From assembly GCA_963513935.1 (NCBI GenBank), contig OY740765.1:76677718-76741717 (forward strand): DNA of 64,000 bases. The letters run 5' to 3'. The notes below the pieces were generated by a model. That model saw only the letters and a list, made by a program, of their open reading frames with translations. It was not told the origin of the DNA and searched no databases. This DNA is from Aphrophora alni (lineage: Eukaryota; Arthropoda; Insecta; Hemiptera; Aphrophoridae). This document shows positions 6,034 to 54,602 of the stretch, piece after piece. How positions within the stretch are numbered: position 1 is the stretch's first letter; every line of letters starts with the position of its first letter. A program made the position numbers and the translations under genes.

Positions 6034-6037
6034 ATTA

Positions 6038-8140
6038 ACCCTCCAGCTGGCGCATGTTAATGTGCCTTAAAAATTCTTCGTTCGTTTAAAAATTAATAAA
6101 ATATATTATTTGTATACAAAACCTAACTTATAAGATATCATTTTTCTCAGAAAGATGCATAGAATTTATCTATGTAATAAAAAAATAAATTTTTGAAACG
6201 GTTTTGGAGTAAGTATGTTAGATGTCAAAAATGATATTAACTAATTTTCAGAAATACCTGTATCACCCAAAATCAATAGCTTACTACCTATTTCTAAGAT
6301 ATACACAATTTTAGTGTATTATTTGTGAATATATTTAGGAAAAAATATATATAAATTTGTTATATTTTATAAATGTAAAAAAATATTTTACGTAAAAACT
6401 GAATTTTCTCTTTATTTTTTTAAAAAAACATTAAAAATAGTAAAATATATTTTATACAGAACTTCTATATATCATTATGTCCAGAAAGGTGCATAGAATG
6501 TAGGTGTGCAATGAAAAAAAAGTTAGATCTATCAAATTTGGAGTTTTTTGGTCAAATACCAAAAAATCTAAGAGTAACAGAGCAGAAATTTCATAGAAAT
6601 GGTGATCAAAAACATACTAATACATTTTTTGCAATTTTTTCGACCATTTGTTGAGATTTCTAATACATTTGTGAATATATTTAGGGGAAAAAAATAATAA
6701 TATGTTACATTTCTAAATAAAAATGACGATTTTTCAACAATTTGTATTCTGACGCTTGAGGTTAGGTTTGAACTCTTGACATTTAGGCGTAATTAGTAAC
6801 TTCCTAAAGCTAGGCCTAAGACAAAATCATTAGATTTTACTAAGACAATATACTTTACAAAGAATAACACACATATTCACTTGTATACTCATATAAAACA
6901 CTAAATATAAGACAATTTGCATATAGCCTAGACTTAGCATTTTCGTTTTAGGTTATGACAAATATAAACCTTTCACAAACTAGAAATTCACTAAAAACAT
7001 AATCTTTAGATATAAAAACACATATATTGTAACTTGTATACAAAATATATACAATTTGTATAAACAAACCTTCAAAATAAAATAGATATGTATTCCCAAA
7101 CTGTTACAGCGCTAAGTCATTTGTTACAGTATTTTACATCGCACCATTGCGTATGTTCCGGGCTCAAACAAAACCTTTATTATCAATTCACAAGTTTGTA
7201 ACATACACAAAATTAAAGATTGAAACCTCATCTTTGGAATGATGTAAAATAAAACAGTAAAATCTATGACGTCAATATAGAAATATGGAATAGCGTCTAA
7301 ATACTCCAAGTAAAGAGAAGGATCAAAATATTCAGTAAACCACATCGTAGACTGTATACAACTTGTAAACTATATAACTTAGGATGATTTCGTCTTCATA
7401 GTTCGAAAGAGGAAGAAAAATACTATATAATATTGTTAACTTGTAACATTTGGACAAGTTTTACCATTTCGAAAAAATATATGAACATATAGGTGATAAA
7501 AACTCGCCGCGGCAAATTGTCGCAGCCTAGCGTTATGAACCTCAACTTCAGTCAAATCTTGTATTACAGTTTTACGCAAGTTTAATTTTTCTAAACCTGG
7601 TTATGAAAGATTGAAAAATTACATTTTCAATGGTATAGAATACATTTCGATAATATAATATCTACTAGGATAAAAGTTGAATTGCAAAAAATGTAATTTT
7701 TAGCGTGTAAAATAGCGTTAAAACTCTTGATTTGGTTTAATTTTTATATAATAAAAACTATACTAGTTGGAAACATTTGAAAAAGACGGTTTTGAAGAGA
7801 AAGACGCGATCTATCAAGCAGTGTTAGGTTATATTTGACTGACAGTAATTTGGAAATAAGAAAAATAGGCAAACGAGACGAATGTTTTGTTTAAAACTTG
7901 TTAACGTAAAACTTTGACGTTACGCATCAAAAATATGCGAACTTCACCAATTTTTGGAATATTATTTATAACGTTCTGTGGTATTTTTTTGCATGATATG
8001 CATCTACGGAACATTAGCTTTCCAACGGTATTTTATTTATTGCGATGGGACAATTTTAAGTGGGCGTAACGTTGAATGGCCAAATACGTGTTTTTTAGTT
8101 GGTGAAGTGAGCCATTACTAATGCCGCGACCCGGTCGCAG
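6038..8140 (+). mobile_element. TTAA-flanked non-autonomous piggyBac-like element, old copy
   Basis: Starts CCCTCCAGCTGGC after TTAA (6034-6037) and ends near CCCGGTCGCAG before TTAA (8141-8144). The body shares long stretches with the copies at 13038, 40161 and 41914: the GATGCATAGAATTTATCTATG block, the GGTGATCAAAAACATAC block, and the 3' block around GGAACATTAGCTTTCCAACG. It is longer (2.1 kb) and more diverged than those copies, so it is probably an older or different subfamily. No transposase is present. Confidence 0.65.
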
Positions 8141-12213: not shown

Positions 12214-13300
12214 CTATCTTCTTACTTCTGATGGGTTGCAATTTTGAGGGATTGATTGTATAATTTTAGTCATGAAGTAGTCATCAAAAGTGGCAATGTT
12301 GTAGGTTTCTGCATGTTGTACAATTGTTTTCTCTATATCCATGATTTTTACATCATGTCTGTGGCCATTCATTTTGGTGCTTAAGGGTTGTCTGTGGTTA
12401 GTCCAATATATTGAACTGTACAAAATCAGCACTGTGGTTGGTAGATAACATTTTTGTGTGGTACATATGTAAAGACATTTATACATATTTGTTAGACTAT
12501 TGTGACGGTAAGTCTCATTAATATTAATATATCTAAAGACATTTAATTTATAATTCTTTTTTACTGGAGGAACTATTGAAGTTATTAGAGAGAAGATGTA
12601 TTTTGCGTGTTTTGCATCTTGGGCTATTGCATGGAAAAGAATTGTGGGAAATGTTTAGGTGTGTTGGGATCTAGAAGTTTGAGGTGAATTTTGGATTTGT
12701 GGGCTGTTTAAATAAGACTCTGGGAGGTTCTGTCAGAAGATTGTTGGTAAAGTTGGAATCTTGTAGAATTTTAAAGCCTTCATTCAGTATGTTGTTTAAT
12801 TTCTGTAGGCCTGAGTGATAATTCGTATCCAGAGGGGTGGGCAAGTTATTTATTTTTCTTAGATGTGATATCTGTGTTTTGTACCAAACAAATTTGATTC
12901 CTAACCAGTTTCTCAGGATACCCTTTTTGCAAATACTGATGTCATCTTTTTGTTAAATTCATATAGTTCACTCTCCTCGGAATAAATCCTTTTGGCTCTT
13001 ATTGCCTGGATATATAGAATAGCTCGTTTAATGTTAACCCTCCAACCGGCAATGTTAATTGTCTTGAAAATTCTTCGTTTGTTTAAAAATTAATAAAATA
13101 TATTATTTGTATACAAAACCTAACTTATAAGACATCATTTTTCTCAGGAAGATGCATAGAATTCATCTATGTAATAAAAAAAAAATTTTTTTAAACGGTT
13201 TTGGAGTAAGTATGTTAGATGTCAAAAATGATATTAACTTTTTTTCAGAAAAATCTGTATCACCCTAAATCAATAGCTTACTACCTTTTTCTAAGATATA

Positions 13301-14125
13301 CAGTAGAACCCCTCTTAACCGGTCTAGTCGGGACTGACACCCAGGCCGGTTGCCCGTTTGACCGGTTAATCCGAGGCTCCCGTGAAAAATCGGTTTTCGT
13401 TCAAAGAAAGCTTATTTAATTAGGTAGCACTAAAAATTATGCAATAAAGATGTTATTGCAACTCATTATATTGTACATAAATGTATCGTATATATTATGT
13501 TATGTATATTATACATCAAACATGAAAAAATTAAACACTACAAAGCTTTTTTACAGATTTCCCCCTGTCAAGTCTTTTGACACATTTAACCGCGTCTCAA
13601 ACGAAACCAACACAAGCTTCCAAGAAAAAGAAATGTTATATTTTCCATAATGTAGGCTATACTAAATTGATTCGTGGAAAAAAAGCGGCCCATCAAACGT
13701 TTTTGTCTGTGTATGTCTGCTATACAGACGGGTGCCAATGCCGCGGTGTTTTTATGCCGCCGACAATGGGATACGCTATTGCCAAAGTCGTTTGACTCGC
13801 CGCTGCTTTGGTGCCGCCGACAATGCGATACTGATATCGACAAAGTCGTTTGACTCGCCGCTGCTTTGGTGCCGCGGTGTTTCGCCGACAATGAGATACC
13901 GCTATCGACAAAGTCTTTTGATATCGTCGCCACTTTGGTACCGCGGTGTTTTTACGCTGCCAACTTTGGGATACCGCTATCGGCAAAGTCTTTTGATATC
14001 GCCGCCGCTTTGGTGTTTCAATTACAATTTATTTTCGGAAACCCTCATCCAACCAGTACATTACGATATAGGCCGGTTAATCCGAGGACCGGTTAATCCG
14101 AGGCTGGTTAACAGAGGTTCTACTG
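13301..14125. mobile_element. TA-flanked Tigger/pogo-like non-autonomous element
   Basis: Begins CAGTAGAACCCCTCTTAACC and ends GGTTCTACTG, flanked by TA (13299-13300, 14126-14127). The sister copy at 41914 has the empty site (GATATACAAAAG), which proves the insertion boundaries. Inner repeats with CCGGTTAATCCGAGG occur near the right end. Its GC content and its minisatellite core (13735-14020) set it apart from the AT-rich host element. No transposase remains. Confidence 0.9.
13735..14020. repeat. Minisatellite, 4 copies of a 58-75-bp unit
   Basis: Units share GGGATACCGCTATCGACAAAGTC-like cores followed by TTTGATATCGCCGCC and CTTTGGTGCCGCGG. CAAAGTC recurs at about 13783, 13841, 13909 and 13984. 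The array produces long overlapping open frames on both strands that are not genes. Confidence 0.8.
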
Positions 14126-16441
14126 TACAAAAGTTTTGTGTAATATTTTTGAATATATTTAAGAAAAAAAAAGAAAAAAATGTTACATTTTAAAAATTAA
14201 AAAAATTATATACGAAAAAACTGAATTTTCTCTTTATTTTTTCCAAAAAAACATAAAAAATAGTAAAATATATTTTATACAGAACTTCTATATATCATTA
14301 TGTCCAGAAAGGTGCATAGAATTTAGTTGTGTAGTGCAAAAAAAGTTACATGTATCACATTTGGAGTTTTTTGGTCAAATACCAAAAAATCTAAGGGTAA
14401 CGAAGCAGAAATTTCACAGAAATGGTGATCAAAAACATACTAATACATTTTTTGCAATTTTTTAACCGTTACTTGAGATTTCTAATATATTTGTGAATAT
14501 ATTTAGGGGGAAAAAAAAATAATATGTTACATATTCTAAATAAAAATGACGATTTTTCAAAAATTTGTATTCTGGCGCTTGAAGGTTAGGTTGACATGTC
14601 AAACTTTTAGGCATAATTAGTATTTTTCTAAAGCTAGGCCTAAAACAAAAGCGTTAGATTTTACTAATACAATATACTTTACAAAGAATAACACACATAT
14701 TCACTTGTATACTCATATAAAACACTAAATATAAGAAAATATGCATATAGCCTAAAGTTACCATTGTTATTTATAGGTTATTCCATATACACACTCGAAA
14801 TTCACTCAAAAACAAACTTTAGAAATAAAACACATATATTGTAACTTGTATACACAATTTATATACAATTTGTATACACAAACCTTCAAAATAACAAAAA
14901 TCTAATCCCAAAACCAATATTTGCCACGCCAAATATTATAGTGTTCACGTCAGACATTTGCTACGTTTGGACTTCAAAACAACAAATTCTTAGTAAGCAA
15001 TTCCTCAACTCAAGTGGTACCAATTTATAGATTGGAATTTCACCTACAACATAGAGTAAAAAGAAAAATAATTTTAAAAACAGAGAGATATGAACTTCGT
15101 CTTTTTGTAAAGCGCATCGAATGTCAAATGAATTTCTTGTCGTCAGGTTTGTTCTATGTTCAAGTACGAATATCTCTGGATCTGTTAGACGCAGAACAAT
15201 TTGTAATCTACGGTTAGAAAGGGAAACATGTGATCTATATAACAGTGTTTTAGTTGACTTAAATGACAGAAAAATAGAGTTGTAATCATATCAGGAAAAA
15301 TGGAGCCGCGCTATACGAAAAGGCGCAGAGTTGAAAATTACGATTTTACGCATCAAAAATACGTGAACTTCACCAATTTTTGGAATATTATTTATAACGT
15401 TTTGTGGTAATTGTTTTTACATCTACGGAACATTAGCTTTCCAACGGTATTTTATTTATTGCGATGGGACAATTTTAAGTTGGCGTAACGTTGAATGGCA
15501 AAATACGAGATTAAGAGTTGGTGAAATCACTTGGGAGCACGTGGGCGACCTACTGTAGGTCGCCGTGCCGGTTGCAGGGTTAAGTGTTAAGTGGAGGTAT
15601 TGTATGTGATTTGTCGGTTTAACAAGTATGGCAGTTTATATTTTGCCGTACCTTAGTAACATTGTCATCCAGAAAAGTCCTGGTGAAATTTAGAACAGAA
15701 TATTTTAAAAGACTTTAAGAAATGATCTAGGCTTAAATTTCCTGATGTCCAAATTAAAAAAAAATATCATAAATGTATCTGTACCAACAGAGAGGTTGAT
15801 GGAGTTGCTTCTTAAGAAAAGTTTTTGCCAAATCTCTCATGTAAAGGTTCTCATAGGTTGGAACCATTCTGGTACCCATTGCCCCTTCTTTTATATGTAA
15901 AGTTTTTGCCTTGGAATTGGAAGTTATTCCATTGAAGAATGAACTTTAGCAAGGTTCATCAAAAAAGAAATAGTAGGAATGTGTTATTCTTTTGTTTGTT
16001 TAAGAAATGTTCTTAACCTGAAAGGCCGTGTGTATAAAGATACGACTTCTATGGTTGCAAGAATTGTGTTAGAAGCCATTTAATGACAAGAATAATACAG
16101 AATATTGAAGGCATTAAGTCTTATATTTATTATTTAATTTATTGTATTTTGTTGTTGGTAAATAATGTCTGATAGTTGTTTGTTAATTTCATTTAGGTAG
16201 TCTGCTTTGTTCATGACCACTTTGGTGATCCTTTGTATGCTGGTAAGATCATGATGTTTTCGTTAGTTTTCTGGGAATGTATTGCTGCTTTTTCAGATTT
16301 GGTAATATTAGGTTTTGTTTTTAGGCTATTTAAAAATGACAGTTCGCTTAAACTTTGCGTTATAAAATTGATATGTAGTTCTATCGGTTGATCGGAAGAT
16401 ATTGGTGGGTGATTCGAATTAGATGGCAGTTTGAATTTCAA

Positions 16442-21800: not shown

Positions 21801-24050
21801 CACGTTGACTGCTAATAAAAAATGCAATACATGCTTCTATAAGCTAATATTTTTTTTTTTTGTGTGTTATCACTTACCTCTAGTATTATTGTGACGAAAA
21901 TAGGCAAAGAAAAGTCTTCAGGTATCCAAAACTCCAAATTTGACCATTTTGAAAATGTGCTTTAGATCTACCTCATGAGGGTATGGCGCCGGTCTTGCTT
22001 GCGGGCGCACACATTTGCACTACTTATTTTGAATAAATACTGCACTAATGTTTTAGTTTATAGTATTAAAAACAAACTAACTTAAAAGATAAATTGATCA
22101 AAAATGTAAAAAAAAAAAAAAAAAAATAGTTATATACAACCCAACCAACCAGCCAAAGTCTTTGTTCTTTAGTCATGGAACTGGTCAAAACAGTGTGAGA
22201 CACATAAGCCCGGTTCTCCATCGCACTATAAACACTGCCACAATACATATTTTTTTATACCTTTTGCGTAGCAGACTCTACACCTTTTCTGCTTGCTTCT
22301 TTTTCCACAAGCCACTTTCTCTGTCATTTTCGAGGGCACGTGATGTACACTCTTTCGCTTCAGTGGTCGTGGAGGAGGCGTTATGTCAGGCAGGAGCTTG
22401 TCGACAATGGCGAGATGGAAATTGTACAAAGGTATTTTATTTTGGCCGGTTGAGAGTTGTACCTCGTTGTACAGGTAGTGAAAATTAACCATAAACGTCT
22501 GCATTATATGTACAAAAATCTTTTTGTACCACCACAGCGTTTTCCTTTCGCATGGGTAGTATGACATCATTTGATCACTACGGTCTACACCCTTCATAAA
22601 ATGGTTATACTGCTCAATTGGCAGTGGTTTGTTCCTTGGCTGGCCAAATAGGTTATTTGAAATTACCATATCATTGGTAAATTCGGTTGAAATGTACGAC
22701 ACAACACGTTTGTCCTTCTACTTTCCAACGACGACACCTTCCGTGTAACAAGCAATAGTTTCATCCTTCTTCAATGTAGTGTATTTCACTTCTGCAGGAT
22801 TGTATTTTTGGTCTAGCTGAAGGGTTCCAGTGCAGTAGGTGTTTCTACGTACCAGAGCCGATGCAAGGGAAAAACTGTTGTAATAGTTATCCATAAATAA
22901 ACTATGGCCACAGTTCAGTTTTCTTTGCATTAGATTTAGTATGACATTACTGGCATATCCCGTACCACCATAGTCTTGTAACACCCCACAATACATAAAA
23001 AAATCTAAGAGTCAAACCATGGGGGTCGCATAAACTATGCAATTTGATTCCATACTTGTGTCGCTTCTACTTGATGTATTGTCGGAACTGTAGCCGCCCA
23101 CGCCACAGCACCATACCTAAGTCGATGCAAAGCTTTTTCTGTGAGTAATATATGGATTCCATCTTATTATTAAAATAATCAATCAAAAATTGTACTTTAC
23201 TTGCTCTGTTTTTAGGGTTAGGTCTTATTTCAAAATTTATGCACTGCAAAATGAGCAAAAATTTGTCTTGAGACATGAAATTGTGAAAGCATTTCATAAA
23301 CAGTTTGTTTGTTTTCCAATAATCTACAAAACGGGACAATTTATGTATTCCATGAGTAACAATAAGCCAATGAAAATCCGCAAGTCATCAATGGTGATGT
23401 CCTTCCACCTATGAATTCGTGAGCCTGGCATAGTAGAGTGCCCACAGAACATTTCCAATGCATACTTATTGGTAGCCGCCACAATGCCTTCCAAAAACAC
23501 CACATCAACCAGTAAATTGAAAAAGCTAATTGACGTTATTTCAATAGGTAAAGGGACTAGGAATTTCTCCTCTTTTGTAAACGGTATTTCTTTCATACCC
23601 ATAGTGTTGTTTGCACTCCATTGGGGCGGATTCAATTCATAGTCAGGGTCCTCAACATCCGACTCCTCACTCTCGTATGGCTGATCATCTAGGTCTGGAA
23701 CATGTGATGGATTGTCCACAAACTCGTCTTCATCGGTTGTAAGCACTACAATAGGTATATTTTTAACAAAACTTAGTCCTGGAGGCAAATCCATGGTTAT
23801 TATACAAACACTACACGTTCACAATTACAACTGTCCACATAACCAATAAAAAGTGACAACTGGGAACGAAGACTACCAAAACGCGGGAAAAGTATGTCCC
23901 AACACGCGCAAAAAAATCCATCTTACAGACCGAGTGCTGGAAGCACACTGACCCAATACAAGAACAATGGAGCTGTGCGGTAGTTCTACGTCATGCGCGC
24001 CTGGCGCTGCTTACTGGTGCAGTAGCGCTACCGCACCCGCAGTCAACGTG
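21801..24050 (-). mobile_element. piggyBac transposon, near full length, inactive
   Basis: Perfect 12-bp terminal inverted repeats CACGTTGACTGC (21801-21812) and its complement (24039-24050), flanked by TTAA at 21797-21800 and 24051-24054. This is the target site specific to piggyBac elements. It is 2250 bp and encloses one - strand transposase gene (22169-23794) in the expected position. Confidence 0.95.
22169..23794 (-). pseudogene. piggyBac transposase (PGBD-like), broken
   Basis: Acidic N-terminus (DEDEFVDN, SEESDVEDPDYE) from 23794, then LRIFIGLLLLMEYINCP, the DDE region with FMDNYYNS near 22870-22890 (family MDNWYTS, carrying a catalytic Asp), KGVDRSDQMMSYY near 22560-22600 (family GVD..D), and a C-terminal Cys-rich finger KRCRVC...C..C...PGLC...CF ending at 22169. 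Breaks seen: a frameshift near 23330; an in-frame TAG where KRHKYGIK follows QYIK (about 23067); a frameshift in a T run near 23000; TAG at 22716 where VVGKWKD would be expected; and one TAG inside the finger (about 22229). Conserved order and few breaks indicate a fairly recent death. Confidence 0.93.
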
Positions 24051-32999: not shown

Positions 33000-33704
33000 A
33001 GGAACTAACTTAGACAGCAAAAACATCAGTAATGATATGATTTCATCGAAAGTAATAAAAACACTAATGAATCCAAAACCATACTGTTTACATGGACAAC
33101 TGGTACTCAAGCCCTGACTTATTTGCTTGATTTTATGAAAAAAATAAAATAAATAAAAAAAACAAAAAAAATAGGAGCTTTTGCGAGATATTAAATGCAA
33201 AAAAGAAAGTTTGTTCCACGCCTCCTGAAAAAAATGATACCAGGTGAGGTAGCAGATAGACAAAACGACAAAGTGATAGTTATAAGATAGTGTGACAGGT
33301 GTCCAGTTACAATGCTTTCCACAGTAGATAAGCATGAAATTGTTACTACTGAAACAATTTTTATTTCGTTGAAAAATAAAATAAAGCCGAATTCTGTGGC
33401 AAACTACAACACAAATATGAGCGCAGTAAACAAATCCGATATGATGATATACTACAATAACTCAACTAGAAAAACAGCCAAATGGTATATCAAATTATTT
33501 TTTAATTTATTGAACGTTAGTGTTCTGAATTCATATTATGTATACAGACTAAAAATGAAAGAAAGAAATCCAAATGGAAATGTGCATTTAATGGATTTTA
33601 AAATAAACTTAATTCAACAACTATTAGAGGTGCACCACACTCCAAGAAATGTCTTGTCACGTCCTGCAGGCGGAGTCCTAAATCAATTGCGACTCTCGGG
33701 ATGA
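33000..33704 (+). pseudogene. Second piggyBac-like transposase, strongly decayed
   Basis: A block at 33086-33130 reads VYMDNWYSSPDLFA, the piggyBac catalytic box MDNWYTSP, followed by a stop. After about 170 bp of broken sequence a long frame (33312-33704) reads MLSTVDKHE, SVANYNTNMSAVNKSDMMIYY (family VxxYNxxMGGVDxxDQ), WYIKLFFNLLNVSVLNSYYVY and DFKINLIQQLL. The GVD motif is changed to AVN, so a further catalytic residue is lost. Candidate ends: TTAA then CCTGTT at 32644-32653, and AACAGG at 34188-34193; these are only 6 bp and weak. Confidence 0.8.
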
Positions 33705-35674: not shown

Positions 35675-36777
35675 CAGTACTACCTCGTTTATCCGGACCT
35701 CATTCAACCAGATGTCTGGATTATCCGGATCGATCCGGAACAAAAAATAAAAAATTTAATCAAGGATAAAATGAAGCAAAAGCTTAAAGTTTCAAAATAT
35801 TTTAATAATTACTGTATTTTGAATAATATTTTAAATAATTTTATAATAGGCCTATTTTGAAACTTTAAGCTTTTGCTTTATTTTATCCTTGAATATGGAG
35901 TTTCAACAAGAAATATCTGCTATTACATTAATGTTGATAAAAACGTGATTTCCTCAACACTACTGTGTCACCTCGAGGTATTAGGGCGGGTTGTTGATGC
36001 ACTGGGAAGAGAAAGTGGAGGAGCAATGACCTCTGCGTCACCATCCCCCTACCCCGATGCCGCATGACAGTGTGAAATAAATACAAACCAGGTGCATGTT
36101 TACAACGCATCATAAACCATCATGTCATTTTTACAACTTTATTGTTGTCGGGTTGCTAAGACTCAAGGGTGTAAATCAGTAAATGTGAACATTTTGTCAC
36201 ATCTTAAAGCGGTGCCGCCAGCTTTGGCAACCCCCGTTCTTTTTTTTGGCAGTTGGCACATCACATCCCCAGTCGGGAGTATCGAGGACGTGAATGGGAA
36301 TCGGCATAGTATTTAGAGGTGGGCGTTGTTACTGCTATTTATTTATATTCGTGTGTTAGTGTTTGTGCGTGGAAATGGCGACGAAACGAAAACGTAATGT
36401 GCTTACAATGGCCCAAAAGTTAGACGCATTGAATCGTATAGACAGGGCCGCATTGAAACGTAACACCAAATTAAAACAGAGGAAGATAAATGACTTTTTT
36501 GTAAATAACAACTAAACCCTGTGTAAATTAAAAGCATGTGTAAATATTTCAGGTGTGTAAATAAATGTTTTTCATCATTTACAGTACATTGTGTAATTTC
36601 GTGTATTGTGTAAATTGAATGACTGTGTAAATATTGTGTTTTTTCATGACTTATAAATGGTAAGTTATCATTTTATATTTTGTTTTATTTATCTTTCTAT
36701 AATTTTGGATTATCCAGATTTTTGATTAACCGCATCACTTCCGGTCCCAATTAGTCCAGATAAACGAGGTTGTACTG
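35675..36777. mobile_element. Tigger/pogo-like deletion derivative, copy 2
   Basis: TA-flanked (35673-35674, 36778-36779), with the same terminal repeats as 2535-3845 and over 90 percent alike by eye. It lacks about 230 bp present in copy 1 (at 2900-3155). The deletion junction falls at a short GACAGTG/CTGTG similarity. Both intact small frames of copy 1 are kept: 46 codons at 36375-36515 and 64 codons at 35873-36067. Confidence 0.85.
36375..36515 (+). pseudogene. Tigger-like transposase remnant (HTH start fused to tail), copy 2
   Basis: 46 codons, same structure as 3460-3600: MATKRKRNVLTMAQKLDALN then KLKQRKINDFFVNNN. It differs from copy 1 at three residues only (K-R-N versus K-C-H, and L versus Y). 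No catalytic domain. Confidence 0.7.
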
Positions 36778-39248: not shown

Positions 39249-39505
39249 TTTTTCATTACTGTTGAGACCGATGGTTCTTGGTGGAATTCCATGTTTAAAG
39301 ATAATAAAACACAATTTTTTATTTTGTAATATCCACTTTTTATTAGTCTAGCCGACCAATGGTTTCGCCTGCTAAGGCATTGACGAGGCTGTATTACAGA
39401 CAGTCTGTAATACAGCCTCGTCAATGCCTTAGCAGGCGAAACCATTGGTCGGCTAGACTAATAAAAAGTGGATATTACAAAATAAAAAATTGTGTTTTAT
39501 TATCT
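39249..39505. mobile_element. 257-bp palindromic insertion with 13-bp target duplication
   Basis: Flanked by TTAATTTCTGATA at 39236-39248 and 39506-39518. After a 48-bp head (TTTTTCATTACTGTTGAGAC onward) shared with the 99-bp insertion at 10436, the rest is an almost perfect inverted repeat. Its arms are about 103 bp each, centred near 39402 in ATTACAGACAGTCTGTAAT. The arms' ends (AAAACACAATTTTTTATTTT) also match the tail of the 10436 insertion. Inserted in the reverse transcriptase remnant. It gives mirror-image open frames on both strands. Confidence 0.8.
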
Positions 39506-40160
39506 TTAATTTCTGATAAATACTGTGTAAGGCTGTTAACTTGCTGAAAGGTTTGGATCTCAAGTTGTTTAACGGCCTTCCCTCTAAAATTGAGGTTGGT
39601 GTCGTTAGGATACTGATTAATGCGTCCAAGACTCAGGAATATTGTATTTACAAATAAAATAAACATTAGAGGTCCCACGGAGGATCCCTGGGAGACCCCA
39701 TATTTTAAAACAACTTTATTAGAAAACTTGCCAGTAAGTTGTATTCACTGAGATCAGACAAAAGTGACATATCAGATGCACACTACGAATGCCATATCTC
39801 TTCAAAATCACAAAGAACACTGACAAATCCACACAGTCGAAAGCCTTGAACGAAGTCCAAGAAAATACTTATTGTTTAAAACGGCTGATCAAACGTTCAT
39901 TTATAAAATCCACCAGCTGTGCTACTGCATTAATTGTGGACCCTCTCTTAAACCAAACTGATTGTGAAAAAATAAATTATTAATTTTAAGGAACGATGTC
40001 ATTTGTGCCACAAAAGTTTCTTATATATTTTACTAATAACAGATAATAAGGATATCGGTAGGTAATTATTCATATCTAATGGATTTTTTTAAAGTATTAC
40101 CTTGCCAATTTTTAAACATTCTGAAAACACCATTTTCAAAAGAGTTATTAGATTGGTTAA

Positions 40161-41877
40161 CCCTACAACCGGTCATGTTAATTTTCTTAAAAATTCTTTA
40201 TTTGTTTAAAAATTAATAAAATATATTATTTGTATACAAAACCTAACATATAAGACATCATTTTTCTCAGAAAGATGCATAGAATTCATCTATGTAATAA
40301 TAAAAAAAAAAATTTGAAACGGTTTTAGAGTAAGTATGTTACATGTCAAAAACGAAGTTACCATTTTTCAGGAAAAACCTGTATATTCCAAAATCAATAG
40401 CTTACTACCTATTTCTAAGATATACACAATTTTTGTGTATTATTTGTGAATATATTTAGGGGGGGGGAAATTGTTACATTTTTAAAATTAAAAAAAAATT
40501 TTACGAAAAAACTGATTTTTCTCTTTATTTTTTCCAAAAAACATTAAAAATAGTAAAATATATTTTATACAGAACTTCTATATATCATTATGTCCAGAAA
40601 GGTGCATAGAATGTAGGTGTGTAGTGAAAAAAAATGTTAGATATATCAAATTTGGAGTTTTTTGGTCAAATACCAAAAAATCGAAGAGTAACGAAGCAGA
40701 AATTTCACAGAAATGGTGATCAAAAACATACTAATACATTTTTTGCAATTTTTTCAACCATTAATTGAGATTTCTAATATATTTGGGGGAAAAAAATAAT
40801 ATGTTACATTTTCTAAATAAAAACAACGATTTTGACTAAAAAGTGATACTCTGACAGTTGAGGTTAGGTTTGTAACCTCCACAATTTAGCCTCACTAGTA
40901 ACAATCTGAAGATAGGCCAAAGACAAAATCATTAGATTTTACTAAGACAATATATACTTTACAAAGAATAACACACATATTCACTTTTATAATCATATAA
41001 AACACTAAATATAAGAAAATGTGCATATAGGCTAGACTTACAATATTGGCCTAGGTTATCCCAAATATGAACCGTTCAAAAACTAAACTATCACTCAAAA
41101 ACATAAACTTTAGATATAAAAACACATATATTGTAACTTGTATACACAATTTATATACAATTTGTATACACAAACCTTCAAAATAACAAATATCTAACCC
41201 CAAAACAATATGCGCTACGTCATTTGTTACAGTTTTTACGTTGCACATTTGCGTATGTTCCGAGATCAAAACAAAGCCTTCTAAACTAAGTATTGCATAT
41301 ATCAAGTGCTACCAACTTATAGAATGGAATTTCCCCTACAACATACTGTAAAGAAAAATAATTTTAAAAACATAGAGAAATGAAATTCGTCTTTTCGTAA
41401 AGCGCATCGAATGCCAAAGGAATTTCGTGTCGTCAGGTTTGTTCTATGTTCAAGTAGGAATATCTCTGGATCTGTTAGACGCAGAATAATTTGTAATCTA
41501 CGGTTAGAAAGAGAAACATGTGCTCTATATAACAGTGTTTTAGTTGACTTAAATGACAGAAAAATAGAGTTGTAATCATATCAGGAAAAATGGAGCTGCA
41601 TTATACGAAAAGACGCAGAGTTGAAATTTACGATTTTATGCTACAAAAATATGTGAACTTCACCAATTTTTGGAATATTATTTATAACGTTTTGTGGTAT
41701 TTTTTTTGCATGATATGCATCTACGGAACATTAGCTTTCCAACGGTATTTTATTTATTGCGATGGAACAATTTTAAGTGGGTGTAACGTTGAATGGCAAA
41801 ATACGTGATTAAGAGTTGGTGAAATCACTTGGGAGCACGTGGGCGCTCTACTGTAGGTCGCCGTGCCGGTTTAAGGG
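40161..41877 (+). mobile_element. TTAA piggyBac-like non-autonomous element, copy A of a close pair
   Basis: Starts CCCTACAACCGG after TTAA (40157-40160), ends GCCGGTTTAAGGG before TTAA (41878-41881); 1717 bp. It contains an intact 72-codon frame at 41590-41808. Inserted in the reverse transcriptase remnant. Confidence 0.9.
41590..41808 (+). CDS. Small conserved frame in TTAA element (72 codons), unknown
   Basis: Starts with an ATG, basic N-terminus (YTKRRRVE), then NFTNFWNIIYNVLWYFFCMI, a hydrophobic run that could be one membrane segment, ending GCNVEWQNT. Matches the frame at 43348-43566 except for about eight residues. No known family. It could be chance conservation between young copies rather than a gene. 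Confidence 0.3.
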   Translation: MELHYTKRRRVEIYDFMLQKYVNFTNFWNIIYNVLWYFFCMICIYGTLAFQRYFIYCDGTILSGCNVEWQNT

Positions 41878-41913
41878 TTAAAGGATCTGATATTTTCGTA
41901 GTACACTGTTTAA

Positions 41914-43635
41914 CCCTCCAACCGGCAATGTTGTCTTGAAAATTCTTCGTTTGTTTAAAAATTAATAAAATATATTATTTGTATACAAAACCTAACTTAT
42001 AAGACATCATTTTTCTGAGGAAGATGCATAGAATTCATCTATGTAATAAAAAAAAAAATTTTTTGAAACGGTTTTGGAGTAAGTATGTTAGATGTCAAAA
42101 TGATATTAACTTTTTTTCAGAAAAATCTGTATCACCCTAAATCAATAGCTTACTACCTTTTTCTAAGATATACAAAAGTTTTGTGTAGTATTTTTGAATA
42201 TATTTAGGAAAAAAAAAGAAAAAAAATGTTACATTTTAAAAATTAAAAAAATTATATACGAAAAAACTGAATTTTCTCTTTATTTTTTTCCAAAAAACAT
42301 AAAAAATAGTAAAATATGCTTTATACAGAACTTCTATATATCATTATGTCCAGAAAGGTGCATAGAATTTAGTTGTGTAGTGCAAAAAAAGTTACATGTA
42401 TCACATTTGCAGTTTTTTGGTCAAATACCAAAAAATCTAAGAGTAACGAAGCAGAAATTTCACAGAAATGGTGATCAAAAACATACTAATACATTTTTTG
42501 CAATTTTTTTAACCGTTACTTGAGATTTCTAATATATTTGTGAATATATTTAGGGGAAAAAAATAATAATATGTTACATATTCTAAATAAAAATGACGAT
42601 TTTTCAAAAATTTGTATTCTGGCGCTTGAAGGTTAGGTTGACACGTCAAACTTTTAGGCATAATTAGTATTTTTCTAAAGCTAGGCCTAAAACAAAAGCG
42701 TTAGATTTTACTAATACAATATACTTTACAAAGAATAACACACATATTCACTTGTATACTCATCTAAAACACTAAACATAAGAAAATATGCTTATAGCCT
42801 AAACTTACCATTGTTATTTATAAGTTATTCCATATACACACTCGAAATTCACTCAAAAACAAACTTTAGAAATAAAAACACATATATTGTAACTTGTATA
42901 CACAATTTATATACAATTTGTATACACAAACCTTCAAAATAACAAAAATCTAATCCCAAAACCAATATTTGCCACGCCAAATATTATAGTGTTCACGTCA
43001 GACATTTACTACGTTTGAACTTCAAAACAACAAATTATTAGTAAGCAATTCCTCAACTCAAGTAGTACCAACTTATAGAATGGAATTTCCCCTACAACAT
43101 AGAGTAAAAAGAAAAATAATTTTAAAAACAGAGAGATATCAACTTCGTCTTTTTGTAAAGCGCATCGAATGCTAAATGAATTTCTTGTTGTCAGGTTTGT
43201 TCTATGTTCAAGTACGAATATCTCTGGATCTGTTAGACGCAGAACAATTTGTAATCTACGGTTAGAAAGAGAAACATGTGATCTATATAACAGTGTTTTA
43301 GTTGACTTAAATGGCTGAAAAATAGAGTTGTAATCATATCAGGAAAAATGGAGCCGCGCTATACGAAAAGGCGCAGAATTGAAAATTACGATTTTACGCA
43401 TCAAAAATACTCGAACTTCACCAATTTTTGGAATATTATTTATAACGTTTTGTGGTATTTTTTTTGCATGATATGCATCTACGGAACATTAGCTTTCCAA
43501 CGGTATTTTATTTATTGCGATGGGACAATTTTAAGTGGGCGTAACGTTGAATGGCAAAATACGTGATTAAGAGTTGGTGAAATCACTTGGGAGCACGTGG
43601 GCGACCTACTGTAGGTCGCCGTGCCGGTTGGAGGG
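41914..43635 (+). mobile_element. TTAA piggyBac-like non-autonomous element, copy B of a close pair
   Basis: Best-preserved member of the family: perfect 13-bp terminal inverted repeats CCCTCCAACCGGC / GCCGGTTGGAGGG, TTAA at 41910-41913 and 43636-43639; 1722 bp. Same orientation as copy A, only 28 bp away. No transposase, so it presumably depended on a piggyBac enzyme supplied elsewhere. Its ends differ from those of the 21801 piggyBac, so that element is unlikely to be its partner. Confidence 0.93.
43348..43566 (+). CDS. Small conserved frame in TTAA element (72 codons), unknown
   Basis: Starts MEPRYTKRRRIENYDFTHQK and ends GRNVEWQNT; one hydrophobic segment in the middle. Same frame as 41590-41808. 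Translation is not shown by anything in the sequence. Confidence 0.3.
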   Translation: MEPRYTKRRRIENYDFTHQKYSNFTNFWNIIYNVLWYFFCMICIYGTLAFQRYFIYCDGTILSGRNVEWQNT

Positions 43636-43720
43636 TTAATTAGGTAAACAGAAATATTATTAATGTCAGTAGGTTTTGAATTTTTTAAATTACAGTAATT
43701 ACAACCGTCCTAGATCTTGT

Positions 43721-48335: not shown

Positions 48336-50690
48336 CCCTGCAATCGGCGTATGTTAAAGTTTTGTTTTCTTAAAAAATTTATAAAAAATATTATTTTTAT
48401 ACAAAACCTAACTTATAAGATCATTTTTCTCAGAAAGATGCATAGAATTCATCAATGTAATAATTTTTTTTTTGAAAAGGTTGTGGAGTTAGATGTCAAA
48501 AAATGAAGTTAACATTTTTCAGAAAAACCTGTATCATCCAAAATCAATAGCTTACCACCTTTTCTCAAGATATACAAAAATTTTGTATAATATTTGTGAA
48601 TATATTTAGGGAAAAAAAAGAAAAAAAGAAAAGGAAGGGAAAAAAAAATACATTTTCAAAATAAAAAAAATAAAAATACGAAAAAAGGGAATTTGTTACG
48701 CCTATTTTCAAATCTTCACCAAAAATAGTAAAATTTATGGAAAGCACAACTTCTATATACCAATATATTCATAAAGGTGCATAGAATTTAGCTGTGTAGT
48801 GAAAAAAAATGTTAGATGTAAACAATTTGAAGATATTATGTCAAATAGCCTAAAATCGGAAAGTAACACAGGCAAGAATTTCACAGAAATGGTAATGTAC
48901 ACCATACAAAACAAATTTTGGAATTTTTTCAACTATTACTAGAGCTTTGTAATATATTTGTAAATATATATAGGTGGAAAAAAAATTGTTACATTTTCAA
49001 AAATACAGAAATTGTTTTACGCAAAAAGGGAATTTGTTGAATTTATTTTCAAAAATCACCAAAAATTGTAATATATATGGAAAACCAACTTCTATATATC
49101 ATTATATTCAGAAAGGTTCATAGAATTTAGTAGTGTAATGAAAAAAAAGTTTAAAAAATAATTTTGGAGTCAGTATGGCAAAGAAAAAAAAAAACAAAAC
49201 AAAAATCGAAGGCTAAATTTCACTTCAAAGTCCAATTGAGCATAGAAAATTTTGTTTTACATTTTTTTCAAAGTATTACAAACGTTTTCTAGTATAAATG
49301 TGAATAACTATTGGTAAAAAAAAAAAAATCAAATTCTAAAATTTTCAAAATAAAAATAACTTTTTCCCGTAAAAAGTGGTAATCGACAAAGTGAGGTTAG
49401 GTTTGAAACCTCAACAATTTAGGCCTAACTAGTAACAATCTAAAGCTAGGCCTAAGACAAAATCACTAGATTTCACTAAAACAATAAACTTTACAAAGAA
49501 TAACACACATATACACTTGTATAATCAAATAAAGGTTTAAATTCCCTCTAAAGGCTTTATTTCCTGCTGTGACCTCTTGAATGAGAGCACGGAGGAAATA
49601 TTGAAAGAACTTGCTGAACAACACATATTTATAAAACAGAGAATGGTGACAAAAAACCAACTGGTTCTATTATTCTAACAGTTGGTACTCCAAATCTTCC
49701 GGAGCGAGTGTATGCTGGTTTCTACAGTCTAACTGTTAAACTTTATATTCCTAATCCACGGCAAGCATTTGAACATGTAAGCAACACTTGCTCTATAGAA
49801 GAAATGTGTGGACGGTGTGGCAAATAATGCCATAAAAGCGAAGGGTGTAATATATGGAGCCAAAGTGTGCAAATTGTGATGACGACCATCCTGCTCGTTT
49901 ACCGAAATGCCCAAAATATAAAGTTGAGAAAGCAATTATAGAAATAATGGCTTAAGAGAAACTTTCCTTTCCTCAAGCAAGGAAAGTATACAAACAAACA
50001 ACTGTTCTACGTCCAACCATAAGTAAATCATACACAAATGCAACATCTGCCCCAGCCCCGAATTCATGTTCATCGTGTAAAAAACTGGGTGAGATGGTTC
50101 GTATACTATTTTAAAATATTATATGATTTACATTTTTTAATATTATGCCGTTCCGTGAGGTGCATCACTCTCATAAAATACAAAATTTTATAGAATTCTT
50201 GAATTTTTATCTTTCGTGAGAAGGATTTTGTGATACATGATATGAAAGATTTAAACATTACATTTACAATGATATATTACACATTTCAATCAAATAATAT
50301 TTACTAGGCTCAAAGTTGAATTGAAAAAAACGTGATTTTTATCGCGTAAAAACGTGTTAAAATTCTTGATATTGTTCAATTTTTATATATTAAAAACTAT
50401 GAAAGTTAGAAAGATTTTGAAAGCACAGATTGAAACAGGAAGATTTGATCTATAGAATAGTGTTATGGCAGATTTGTTGTATAGAAATATGGATTTGTGG
50501 AAATTAGAGAAAGAATGATGTAAATTGTGTTTCACAACTGTACAGTTTTCTCTTTTTACTCGTTTGCGATGAAATACACAAACTTTCCAATTAATTAAAT
50601 ATTATTTATAACTTTTTATGGTATTTTTTTGCATGATCATGCATCTATGGACATTAGCTTTCTAATGGTATTTTATTTATTAAGGTAGGA
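48336..50690 (+). mobile_element. TTAA-family copy with internal 0.34-kb repeats, 3' end lost
   Basis: Starts CCCTGCAATCGGC after TTAA (48332-48335). Three diverged copies of a block with TCATTATATTCAGAAAGGTG and CATAGAATTTAG follow at about 48424, 48755 and 49093. A retrotransposon gag fragment interrupts it at about 49533-50105. The family's 3' body resumes to about 50690, where similarity ends without a recognisable terminal repeat. Confidence 0.65.
49533..50105 (+). pseudogene. Non-LTR retrotransposon gag-like ORF1 fragment with zinc knuckles
   Basis: LPERVYAGFYSLTVKLYIPN near 49695-49760 and, in a shifted frame, CANCDDDHPARLPKCPKYKV near 49862-49920 match the jockey/CR1-like ORF1 pattern, where LP..V..GY....V..YIPNP precedes CCHC zinc knuckles (C..C...H....C). 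One in-frame stop follows at about 49955, then SFPQARKVYKQ. It interrupts the TTAA-family element. Confidence 0.72.
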
Positions 50691-50843
50691 TGAATCTAAG
50701 CCGATTTGATTTGAGATCCAAGATTTAAACAGACATATATCTGGCCTCAACTTTGAAATGTATTTTCTGTCTACATCTAGTTTTTTCTTTTTCATATAAC
50801 TGATCATATAACTTTCACAACTTTATATATATATATATTTATA

Positions 50844-51365
50844 TGTGACCGTCTCCACTTCTTTCGACCAGCTGGAAGCTCCGGCTGGCTGGAGACCGCG
50901 TACACTTAGCCGAATCTTGTCAGGATGGGCCAAGGAGTCGGGTTAGGATGCTAATGAACGCACGCAACGCAAGTGAAATTAAATATTATATTTTATTATA
51001 TGGCCGAATTAAAGATTACAGAATTGATTATAGTTTATGAAAAAAAAAAACATAACGGCAAGGTTAAGCCTTTAAAATGGCCGAAAAGCATACCGTTGAA
51101 TTTACTAGCACGTGGCCGAAAATGGACTGACCTCGTCCCGTGGCGGTCTTCCGTCTAGCGACTCTCGGACAAGACTGAAGGTCGGCTCGCTAGCTCAAGG
51201 CCTCCACTCCTCGTCTCTCCCCTCCCCTTCTTCTACGTCATATTGCACTGCTCATCAAAACCGCAAGTGCCAATTCATATTTTATTAATTAAAAATCCCT
51301 TTTCATTACATTCTAATTTATTATTATTAGGATTTTGGTTTGGTGGGCTCCTTGGCTGGGCCACA
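50844..51365 (-). repeat. LTR (3' LTR of the - strand element)
   Basis: 522 bp, matching 53959-54476 over its whole length with only a few differences (for example AGCGACTCTC versus AGCGGCTCTC, and a longer A run). The few differences suggest the insertion is young. Confidence 0.92.
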
Positions 51366-53030
51366 TCACCCCCCTCCATACAATTCGAGCCGCACCACTT
51401 GAATAACCAATTTCTTGTCACCACTCGGCTCGCTGTAAAGTGGTGGCTAATGTGACACTCCACTCATTAGCAAAAATAAATTTTAAAAATCGCCAAAAAT
51501 ATACTACAAGATTTCTTTAAATTTTGAAAGGAGAAAGAGAAAATACGAACGTGAGGTCAATTCATTGCTGCCAAATGCTTTCAAAGTCCCCATGCGCCTT
51601 AATTAAAATTTTGAAATCAGTTAGCAATCTGCAAATAGGTGAAGACAATATAGTCTCCTAGCGACTATTACCCCTTCTTATTATAAAAAGTGATTAACTT
51701 AAAACGAAATGAGTGTCCATTTAGGCATCTTTTAAATTTTGACAATGTATTTACCCCCCTTGAATCAAAAAACGAAAACCAAAATAAAATTTTGTTGTGT
51801 TTTACCACCTTGGGTGCGCATCTGCGGTCTTAAAGAGAGAAGTGTTCTTCTGTTACTTTCTTTTGATTGCTTTGCTTACAATCATTAAAAAAATTTTAAT
51901 ATTTTATTCAGAGTTTAAATAATGTATTCAAAATATATCTGCTATAGGATTAAAAATCACCATGGCTTCATTGTGGGGATGCTCGGTTTCTGCATGGGCA
52001 ACCTTACAGCACTTTGCTGTTACTATAAATTGATGTTTAGTTTGTTAACAATTGAAGGGCACCCTTTGGGTCCCTTCCTTGCCTTGTCCTTTTGGACAAA
52101 GGCACTAGGCCTTTATAACAATTGTTGCTGGCATGATGGTGACATCTTTACATCTATTCCCCCACTACAGACCCGCCCCCGAAATCTACCATGGTGTTAT
52201 CCTAAGAGAGAAAAAGAGAAAAAAAAATTTTTTTTTCTACTGTTAAATAGTAACTTAATTATAACAGAAGCACACTTTCTCATGACCCCAGATGCGTTCA
52301 CAACATTTTGGTTGCGAACATAGAAATAAATATTTATAATATTATACTTCCCCCTTGTTTTCCTAACTGAATTCTCATTTCGTGTCCCATGATCCCGTTA
52401 TTAAAATTTTTTTTTTCTTAAGTAAAATCATAATTCCTCTTTACAGATTGTTAACTATCTTTTATTTATTTATTAATTATTATTTTTACTAATATTATTT
52501 ATTTATTTATTTATATTATAATTATTTTGTAATTTGAAATATATTGGTTTGTTCAATTTGTTTATTATTCTTAACCTCTAACCTAACGATATATTTTATG
52601 TTTTATGGTATGTAAAGTTGGGTTTGATGTTTTACTCTACATATTTATATAATTAGAAACTGTTTGTAAATTATAAATGATTATTATATTCAGTCATATC
52701 TCTAAACGATCTTCCCCCCTCCCTTTTTGTTGATAAAAGCAGAACCCGAAATATACAACCAAGTTTATTTATATTGACTAGATAGTGCCTGTTATTTTAT
52801 TTATTTTTAATGTCTATCTCTTTGTGAAACCATATATATATATATATATATATATATAAATGTAAATAATTAATGTTATTTTATTTTTTATTTTATTTTT
52901 ACGTATAATTTTTAGATGTTTTCATTTGTAATTTTTTAATATAAAAATAATTTGATATTACTGTTACATATTTTACTTTTATTGTCTTATTTTACTTTTA
53001 TTGAAAATATTTATTACTATAAATGGATCT
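51366..53030. other. Internal region of LTR element, non-coding
   Basis: AT-rich, with many T/A runs and an (AT)n stretch at about 52831-52857. A 133-codon + strand frame (51922-52323) has a Lys/Phe-rich low-complexity end and no motif. Part of 52600-53077 may be intron sequence that came with the TSC1 exon, since the exon's donor is intact. Confidence 0.5.
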
Positions 53031-53077
53031 TTTTACAAAGTTTGTTTAAAATGTTGTAATATTTGACTAGTTGTTAC

Positions 53078-53542
53078 CCTTAGTAGCTTGAGGAGATCTC
53101 TAAAAATGGAGTGGTTGGTAATTTTATAGAGCCAAGTAGGATGTCTGCGAACTATATGTCCTAAAAGTGTGAGTGCTTGTAATTTAGTTGAATTTCCACG
53201 GACACTCTCAGATAACTTGTCAAACAGATATTTGTCATGGGGCTCTCTAACCCCTACAAGAATTTCTACTGTTCGTATGGATCCTGTTGATAAATAATGT
53301 TCGAAAAGACCATTCAACAACCATGATTCTTTAGTTGAATTGAAATGCTCATGAAATTTTTTCTTAATATCTTCTACAATTTGAAGTTGATTGGATTCTA
53401 ATAGATTGAAGAGTTCCATCATCTCCATTGCTGCTTGGAATGGTTCATTGGGCAGCTCTTTAGCTCATAAAGCTTGTAATTTGGCTACAGAGAAAAAAAT
53501 TCTCTTTGCCCTAAATTTGTGTTACATTGTTGATGACATCAT
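53078..53542 (-). pseudogene. TSC1: Captured exon of hamartin (TSC1), N-terminal part
   Basis: From the ATG at 53428 the exon encodes MEMMELFNLLESN, then LNGLFEHYLSTGSIRTVEIL, REPHDKYLFDKLSE, LQALTLLGHIVRRHPTWLYK and FRDLLKLLR. This is the start of hamartin, whose human form has EPHDKHLLDR..E and SLLGHV.R.QPSWK in the same order. Hamartin is the scaffold of the TSC complex that inhibits Rheb and mTORC1. The exon is bounded by TTTTTTTCAG before 53542 and GTAACA after 53078, ending in phase 0 after an Arg codon. About 117 codons are open. Upstream of the ATG there is a stop in frame 8 or so codons back. No other TSC1 exon was seen on either side, and it lies between LTRs, so it is read as a captured fragment, not the working gene. 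Confidence 0.82.
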
Positions 53543-53556
53543 CTGAAAAAAAGTTG

Positions 53557-53637
53557 TGACCGTCTCCACTTCTTTTGACCAGCTGGAAGCTCCGGCTGGC
53601 TGGAGACCGTGTACACTTAGCCGAATCTTGTCCTGAA
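53557..53637 (-). repeat. Extra 81-bp LTR-end fragment next to captured exon
   Basis: Repeats the last part of the LTR (CTGGTC..AAGTGGAGACGGTCACAAC on the - strand) and continues two or three bases past the LTR end before turning into TTTTTTTCAG, the acceptor of the exon. It is slightly more diverged from the two LTRs than they are from each other (TTTGACC for TCGACC, GTGTAC for GCGTAC). Confidence 0.8.
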
Positions 53638-53940
53638 TCATGGAAAATTCCTTGATACGCCTTTCCCCTTATGAATGATTTCTACATTCATACGTTTGGA
53701 AGAAAGAAAAAAAAAATTAGCCTTAAAACCTTAAAAACTTAGACTTAAAAAAAAATTGTACATAGGAGACGAGGTCAGTGAAATATATTTACTTAAAAAA
53801 ATAAAGGAATTTAAATTTTATCTCCTTTTTTAAAAAAATATAATTTAGAGCGTTAAATTTAGTTAAAGTTCAATTAAATATTTGTAATTCCTTACCTGAG
53901 TTGCGCTCGCTGTCCTCTCCCAAAACAGAGACGGTCGGAT

Positions 53941-53957
53941 CCCACTTCTGACACCAG
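53941..53957 (-). other. Primer-binding site, tRNA-Leu type
   Basis: On the - strand reads TGGTGTCAGAAGTGGG; the + strand CCCACTTCTGACACCA looks like the 3' end of a leucine tRNA including CCA. Position two bases after the LTR is standard. Confidence 0.8.
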
Positions 53958-53958
53958 T

Positions 53959-54476
53959 TGTGACCGTCTCCACTTCTTTCGACCAGCTGGAAGCTCCGGC
54001 TGGCTGGAGACCGCGTACACTTAGCCGAATCTTGTCAGGATGGGCCAAGGAGTCGGGTTAGGACGCTAATGAACGCACGCAACGCAAGTGAAATTAAATA
54101 TTATATTTTATTATATGGCCGAATTAAAGATTACAGAATTGATTATAATTTATGAAAAAAACATAACGACAAGGTTAAGCCTTTAAAATGGCCGAAAATC
54201 ATACCGTTGAATTTACTAGCACGTGGCCGAAAATGGACTGACCTCGTCCCGTGGCGGTCTTCCGTCTAGCGGCTCTCGGACAAGACTGAAGGTCGGCTCG
54301 CTAGCTCAAGGCCTCCACTCCTCGTCTCTCCCCTCCCCTTCTTCTACGTCATATTGCACTGCTCATCAAAACCGCAAGTGCCAATTCATATATTATTAAT
54401 TAAAAATCCCTTTTCATTACATTCTAATTTATTATTATTAGGATTTTGGTTTGGTGGGCTCCTTGGCTGGGCCACA
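53959..54476 (-). repeat. LTR (5' LTR of the - strand element)
   Basis: 518 bp. Followed on the - strand by the primer-binding site at about 53941-53957. Confidence 0.92.
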
Positions 54477-54573
54477 TATATATATATATAAAGTTATATA
54501 AAGTTGTGAAAGTTATATGATCAGTATATATATATATATATATATATATAAAGTTGTGAAAGTTATATGATCA

Positions 54574-54602
<29 letters not shown>
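54477..54602. repeat. AT-rich palindrome and tandem copies flanking the LTR element
   Basis: Two direct copies of a 60-65-bp unit with AAAGTTGTGAAAGTTATATG and ATCAGTATATAT. The same unit occurs inverted at about 50798-50840 on the other side of the LTR element, separated by (AT)n. Confidence 0.8.

Follow-up and report, generated by a model that had tools for sequence, protein, structure and literature searches.

What is the origin of a hamartin-coding segment that lies between two long terminal repeats (LTRs) in the genome of the hemipteran Aphrophora alni: is it the TSC1 gene itself, or a piece of that gene carried by an LTR retroelement? We addressed this question in a window of 64,000 nt (C17:76677718-76741717, C17 being contig OY740765.1) and searched the genome to which it belongs (G000; 1.70 Gb in 388 contigs). 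The analysis indicated that the element at 50844 to 54476 of the window is very probably a Ty3/Gypsy-type copy in which three spliced TSC1 exons and unspliced intron 3 sequence stand in the place of gag, acquired through template switching by reverse transcriptase (RT) on partly spliced TSC1 RNA.

The initial annotation had reported near-identical LTRs, a primer-binding site (PBS) and a polypurine tract (PPT), and all of these are present. The 5′ LTR (518 nt, 53959..54476) and the 3′ LTR (522 nt, 50844..51365), both on the minus strand and delimited by blastn and LTR alignment, have the same orientation and TG...CA ends; they are 98.1% identical (blastn), differing by 6 substitutions over 518 positions and by a 4-nt T-run. 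Between them, and enclosing the captured copy, stand the PBS TGGTGTCAGAAGTGGGATC (53938..53956, minus strand, from sequence reading), which begins 2 nt past the 5′ LTR in the element sense and is presumably complementary to the 3′ end of tRNA-Leu, and the PPT GGAGGGGGGTGA (51366..51377, minus strand), which adjoins the 3′ LTR. The left flank (50799..50843) is one arm of a palindrome and ends in TATA, a possible 4-bp target duplication, while the right arm (54477..54575) consists of two tandem copies of a 50-nt unit; TATA occurs at both edges of the element, but within a (TA)n tract. Rejoining the flanks without the element restored a palindrome with 48-nt arms, 41 of the 48 positions paired, centred on the insertion point. 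Therefore, the LTR-to-LTR unit was inserted as one piece into the centre of a TA-rich palindrome. This palindrome (ACTGATCATATAACTTTCACAACTTTATA...) is a possible cruciform target, and a search of the window for other close copies of its unit (up to 5 mismatches) gave no more than two, at 36118 and 3203, each with 5 mismatches.

The hamartin frame (53464-53033) lies on the minus strand, as does the element, in agreement with the initial annotation. It matched the Pfam family Hamartin (PF04388) with an E value of 8.8e-56 and human hamartin in the PDB with an E value of 2.3e-21, and the nearest hamartin found was that of the spittlebug Clastoptera arizonana (85% identical). Among 37 conserved sites, 3 deviated, two of them in common with Clastoptera. 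Residues E43 (8%) and R117 (3/120), shared by the window and Clastoptera, are uncommon among the 120 hamartins compared, and the R117 carriers include the two Clastoptera entries; the residues thus point to a host that is probably spittlebug-like. An intact frame, conserved like that of real hamartins, would also be expected if this were the real TSC1 gene and LTRs had landed by chance on both sides of one exon, a reading to which we give virtually no chance. It was refuted by a complete, separate TSC1 at C1:34544355-34624536, whose exons are ordered along the Clastoptera hamartin (P0013) and in which the same exons are split by introns. Furthermore, tblastn with 9 long hamartins (8 from named insects) revealed no other hamartin exon in the window, the best other match having an E value of 0.27 (plus strand, 40040-40177); the PBS and the PPT stand at either side of the segment, and the flanks rejoin into one palindrome. 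The outcome that the initial annotation had named as refuting its own reading was therefore not observed. The proposal that an LTR element had captured a host gene, with a complete TSC1 elsewhere, was thus borne out. The locus is also a warning for annotation, as it holds a perfect TSC1 domain and yet is not the TSC1 gene.

The initial annotation had spoken of one captured exon; the element in fact holds three, spliced, together with about 570 nt of intron 3, all on the minus strand. The insert at 53078-53542 corresponds to TSC1 exons A, B, and C (208 + 118 + 139 nt = 465 nt), with both junctions precisely at the splice sites of the native gene. Exon A (53335..53542; native C1:34544241-34544448) comprises part of the 5′ untranslated region (5′UTR), the first 31 codons and one base; exon B (53217..53334; native C1:34546769-34546886) follows without the preceding 2,320-nt intron, and exon C (53078..53216; native C1:34549352-34549490), which runs to codon 117, without the preceding 2,465-nt intron. 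Next comes the unspliced start of native intron 3 (52505..53077), ~573 nt here and 542 nt in the native gene, where the whole intron spans ~10.3 kb. Of the 465 nt of the exon insert, 463 were identical to the native exons after splicing, and the captured intron portion showed one substitution and two repeat-length differences (19 and 12 nt). The comparison of exon and real gene that had been proposed for this locus could thus be made for substitutions, with 2/465 found, both synonymous (window GAG, native GAA), and it had no power for dN/dS. The clean loss of two introns and the entry into a third show that the capture passed through an RNA intermediate, either incompletely spliced or ending inside intron 3. 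Other insects gave a hint in the same direction: in our alignment reading of 11 short hamartin fragments, 6 stop at the codon-33 boundary and 7 turn nonhomologous right past the codon-117 residue; PMC1592085 places an intron of human TSC1 after c.106.

The genome searches behind the copy counts scored the best 40 candidates only. For the coding insert (best 40 of 79 candidates), the matches were the window copy and native TSC1, and the remaining ones were to the intron 3 repeat, a short dispersed sequence at 52677-52900 that has many 70-97% matches in the genome and was brought along with the intron. We take the insert to be single copy besides the native gene, and the several loci with the same LTR-exon arrangement for which the initial annotation had called did not emerge. 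A multicopy, nonautonomous TSC1-bearing family that regulates TSC1 by sense or antisense RNA would resemble the W-linked partial PxyMasc cDNA copies of Plutella, which yield silencing RNAs according to PMC9674220. However, just one copy was found among the candidates scored, and the insert is in sense to its own LTRs; we regard such a family as very improbable.

The parental family, unlike the insert, is large, because a search with window 50844-52512, the element's 3′ part, gave 2,506 first-look candidates; the best 40 of these, the window included, comprised 39 other loci matching over at least ~1.5 kb at 90-94%. The leader (53633..53937, minus strand), defined by genome matches, is likewise common to many family copies, some leader matches being shorter or broken. 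Nine of the 10 leader loci L011 to L020 carry an open reading frame (ORF) of at least 130 aa, and in the three loci scanned the post-leader ORF matched Ty3_capsid (PF19259) in every case, with E values of 3e-8 and 5e-8, above the Pfam cut-off, and 4e-5, below it. This capsid similarity suggests a family of the Ty3/Gypsy type, the class to which the element had initially been assigned. The window copy had been described as showing no visible gag-pol motif, which agrees with our scan of its internal region: of the 43 ORFs (at least 30 aa) listed there, 10 were scanned besides the hamartin frame and none reached a Pfam cut-off, so that neither gag nor pol was seen, nor any other captured gene, and a 134-aa ORF at 51919-52320 (plus strand) had no protein relative at an E value of 1 or lower. 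A second PPT-like stretch, GTGGGGGAATAGATGTAAAG, lies at 52146-52165 (minus strand) within the 3′ part and, judged by eye, is maybe the relic of a nested LTR element.

Next, we read the three joints of the chimera, two of which fall in short shared sequence (~10 nt at J1 and 5 nt at J3). At J1, intron 3 passes into the parental 3′ internal part (51378..52512, minus strand) and overlaps with it in low-complexity ATAAATAAAT, which is common to the native intron, the captured copy and the parental copies L002, L006, and L007; these three copies were read across the point, and four other loci were read at the LTR end instead. At J3, the leader passes into a 78-nt scrap of the LTR U5 end (53555..53632, minus strand, from comparison with the LTRs): the parents read CAGGACAA and then diverge, the LTR reads CTGACAA followed by GATTCGG, and the window joins both at GACAA. 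The 5-nt overlap is marked by the leader matches, which begin at query position 89 in 12 of 13 cases (one at 95), and by the LTR matches, which end at 93 in 26 of 26. Among the best 40 of 1,339 candidates, no copy but the window carried the whole leader/U5 junction. Two positions of the U5 scrap are unlike both LTRs of its own element, and at one of them the base is that of 7 of the 8 other copies with the U5 read, which points to the involvement of a second element RNA. Joint J2, where U5 meets exon A, has the sequence CACAAC TTTTTTTCAG ATGATG, with TTTTTTTCAG (53543..53552, minus strand) directly 5′ of the captured exon A. Since the splice acceptor that precedes native exon A is unlike this sequence, an upstream TSC1 exon ending in CAG is its likely source, and the candidate is the 5′UTR exon end TTTTTTCAG/GT at C1:34541970, 2.3 kb upstream of native exon A and the only T6CAG/GT in the 62.7 kb upstream.

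The same joint raises the alternative of transduction in the manner of retroviral oncogenes, in which an element upstream of TSC1 gave rise to a read-through or LTR-started transcript that was spliced into TSC1, so that the U5 scrap would be an LTR remnant and a single 3′ switch would suffice. The U5 end does immediately precede exon A, and the join coincides exactly with the start of that exon, as it would from splicing. Against this, a stretch of 210 kb that contains native TSC1, with 62.7 kb lying upstream, held no family LTR match, although the insertion that served as source may be polymorphic or may since have disappeared. Two LTR copies with similar-looking, T-rich ends were ruled out as the source of J2, as they do not carry the joined sequence. 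We therefore consider transduction of this kind unlikely, if less so than the other alternatives weighed here.

In the template-switching route that we prefer, minus-strand synthesis would have started at the PBS, made its first jump to the 3′ LTR and proceeded across the 3′ region of the element, an order that we infer. RT would then have switched from element RNA to TSC1 intron 3 within the ~10 nt shared at J1 and gone through exons C, B, and A, followed by the end of what may be a 5′UTR exon lying upstream; a switch from TSC1 RNA to element RNA, at its U5 end, would have produced J2, and another from U5 to the leader at GACAA would have produced J3, whereupon the PBS was reached. Fuller copies of the family presumably provided integrase in trans, and the product would have been placed in the centre of the TA-rich palindrome. 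All segments have the same sense, a requirement of sequential template switching during minus-strand synthesis. As for timing, at all six LTR differences one LTR had a base that was missing from, or occurred once in, the LTRs compared from 17 other loci, among which an element may be represented by both of its ends; thus, the LTR differences arose mostly after insertion. The insert differed from its donor by 3 substitutions (2 exonic and 1 intronic, one further at the edge of J1 being left out) over ~1,005 positions (~0.3%). Because a single copy was found and this divergence from the native gene is so small, capture and insertion probably belong to the same round.

Several observations weigh against this reconstruction. 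Nominally, divergence is higher between the two LTRs (6/518) than between the insert and its donor, the opposite of what capture before insertion would lead one to expect, and the difference is not significant (Fisher p=0.07). The single-copy claim rests on the scoring of the best 40 candidates. The J1 overlap is AT-rich and of low complexity, and the exact switch point cannot be fixed within it. J2 is not fully explained (AC + TTTTTTTCAG after U5): the candidate source carries T6 and not T7, and chance yields at least one T6CAG/GT site in 13 of 100 Markov sequences. Short shared sequence at the joints would also fit DNA end joining, and a capture at the DNA level, in which double-strand-break repair or recombination put genomic TSC1 DNA into the element, would also account for the inclusion of intron 3 sequence. 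However, two introns were removed exactly, and DNA repair would need an intronless TSC1 copy, of which none was found among the best 40 of 79 candidates; a DNA-level origin is hence extremely improbable.

Acute transforming retroviruses carry spliced host growth-control exons between the leader and the 3′ end, which is the arrangement seen here. The window element differs from them in that it carries a truncated fragment of a growth suppressor, with no LTR found upstream of the donor and no sign of spread. In animals, LTR-mediated retroposition with template switching at microsimilarities is established (Tan et al. 2016, as related in PMC5408686, PMC9674220, and PMC8232201). The metazoan retrocopies agree with our case in that host RNA entered an LTR element by switching at short similarities, with introns gone and LTRs at the flanks; here, in contrast, the whole chimera was kept (both LTRs, PBS, and PPT), an intron was retained, and the U5 scrap records an extra switch. 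Pxyfem, the W-linked PxyMasc retrocopies of Plutella xylostella, is likewise an insect case of partial, spliced host cDNA joined to LTR-element gag sequence at a microsimilarity, and PMC9674220 links it to sex determination; it differs in being multicopy and in making silencing RNAs, and its authors did not find its LTRs, whereas our element is one copy with LTRs. Bs1 of maize is also an LTR element with retrocopied host-gene fragments, but from a plant and with three host genes, according to PMC5408686, as opposed to one gene and one copy found here. The literature searched, that on retrocopies and Hemiptera included, named no TSC1 capture. The phenomenon is thus a known one, LTR-mediated retrocopying, and what stands out here is how complete the copy is, together with its retained intron and its U5 scar. 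In a capture this young, with the donor gene, the parental family and all joints readable in one genome, the switches between templates can be traced in their order at single-base level. Retention of the intron indicates that capture is open to incompletely spliced RNA, a point that concerns the place and time at which reverse transcription of LTR elements meets host RNA.

From the native TSC1 start codon, an open frame (53033..53428, minus strand) would encode hamartin residues 1 to 117 followed by 14 intron-encoded residues and a stop (131 aa). The 5′ LTR has, by consensus match only, an initiator (Inr)-like site at LTR position 190 (~54287) with a downstream promoter element (DPE) match at +28, a second Inr-like site at position 238 without a DPE, and AATAAA at positions 44 and 365; the leader has a donor-like site, CAG/GTAAGG, at 53896/53895, of which CAG/GTAAG was kept in 4 of 4 other copies with the region read. 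Because of the Inr/DPE, AATAAA, the leader donor and TTTTTTTCAG 5′ of exon A, an LTR transcript could splice the leader donor to exon A and encode the 131-residue stub. Its AlphaFold model had a pLDDT of 92.6, and the best PDB match was the TSC1 N-terminus in the TSC:WIPI3 complex (9ce3, chains C and D). PMC12245910 puts the N-terminal dimer interface of human hamartin at residues 197-237 and the WIPI3 motif at 659-680. Since the stub has neither, a dominant-negative effect through the dimer interface or the WIPI3 motif is unlikely. We consider the insert most likely to be a neutral by-product. A more far-reaching scenario, in which Ty3/Gypsy RT was templated on nucleus-type, incompletely spliced TSC1 pre-mRNA, so that elements sample nascent host RNA, and an LTR-driven message of the chimera, spliced from leader donor to exon A, gives a folded 131-residue stub with an effect on TSC/mTOR signalling, appears improbable to us.

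As for the rest of the window, an Rfam scan returned nothing at gathering scores, and the LTR pattern and the hamartin alignment had no match in the viral and prokaryote contig collections. Broken transposase pieces with the Pfam domain PF13843, which we take to be piggyBac, are located at 22226-23815 (minus strand) and 33291-33701 (plus strand). Copies of a dispersed repeat, up to ~1.7 kb long and 73-97% alike among those in the window, lie at 6035-7177, 13033-15583, 40154-43639, and 48366-49533, and a 215-nt near-perfect self-palindrome (99.5%) lies at 39295-39509.

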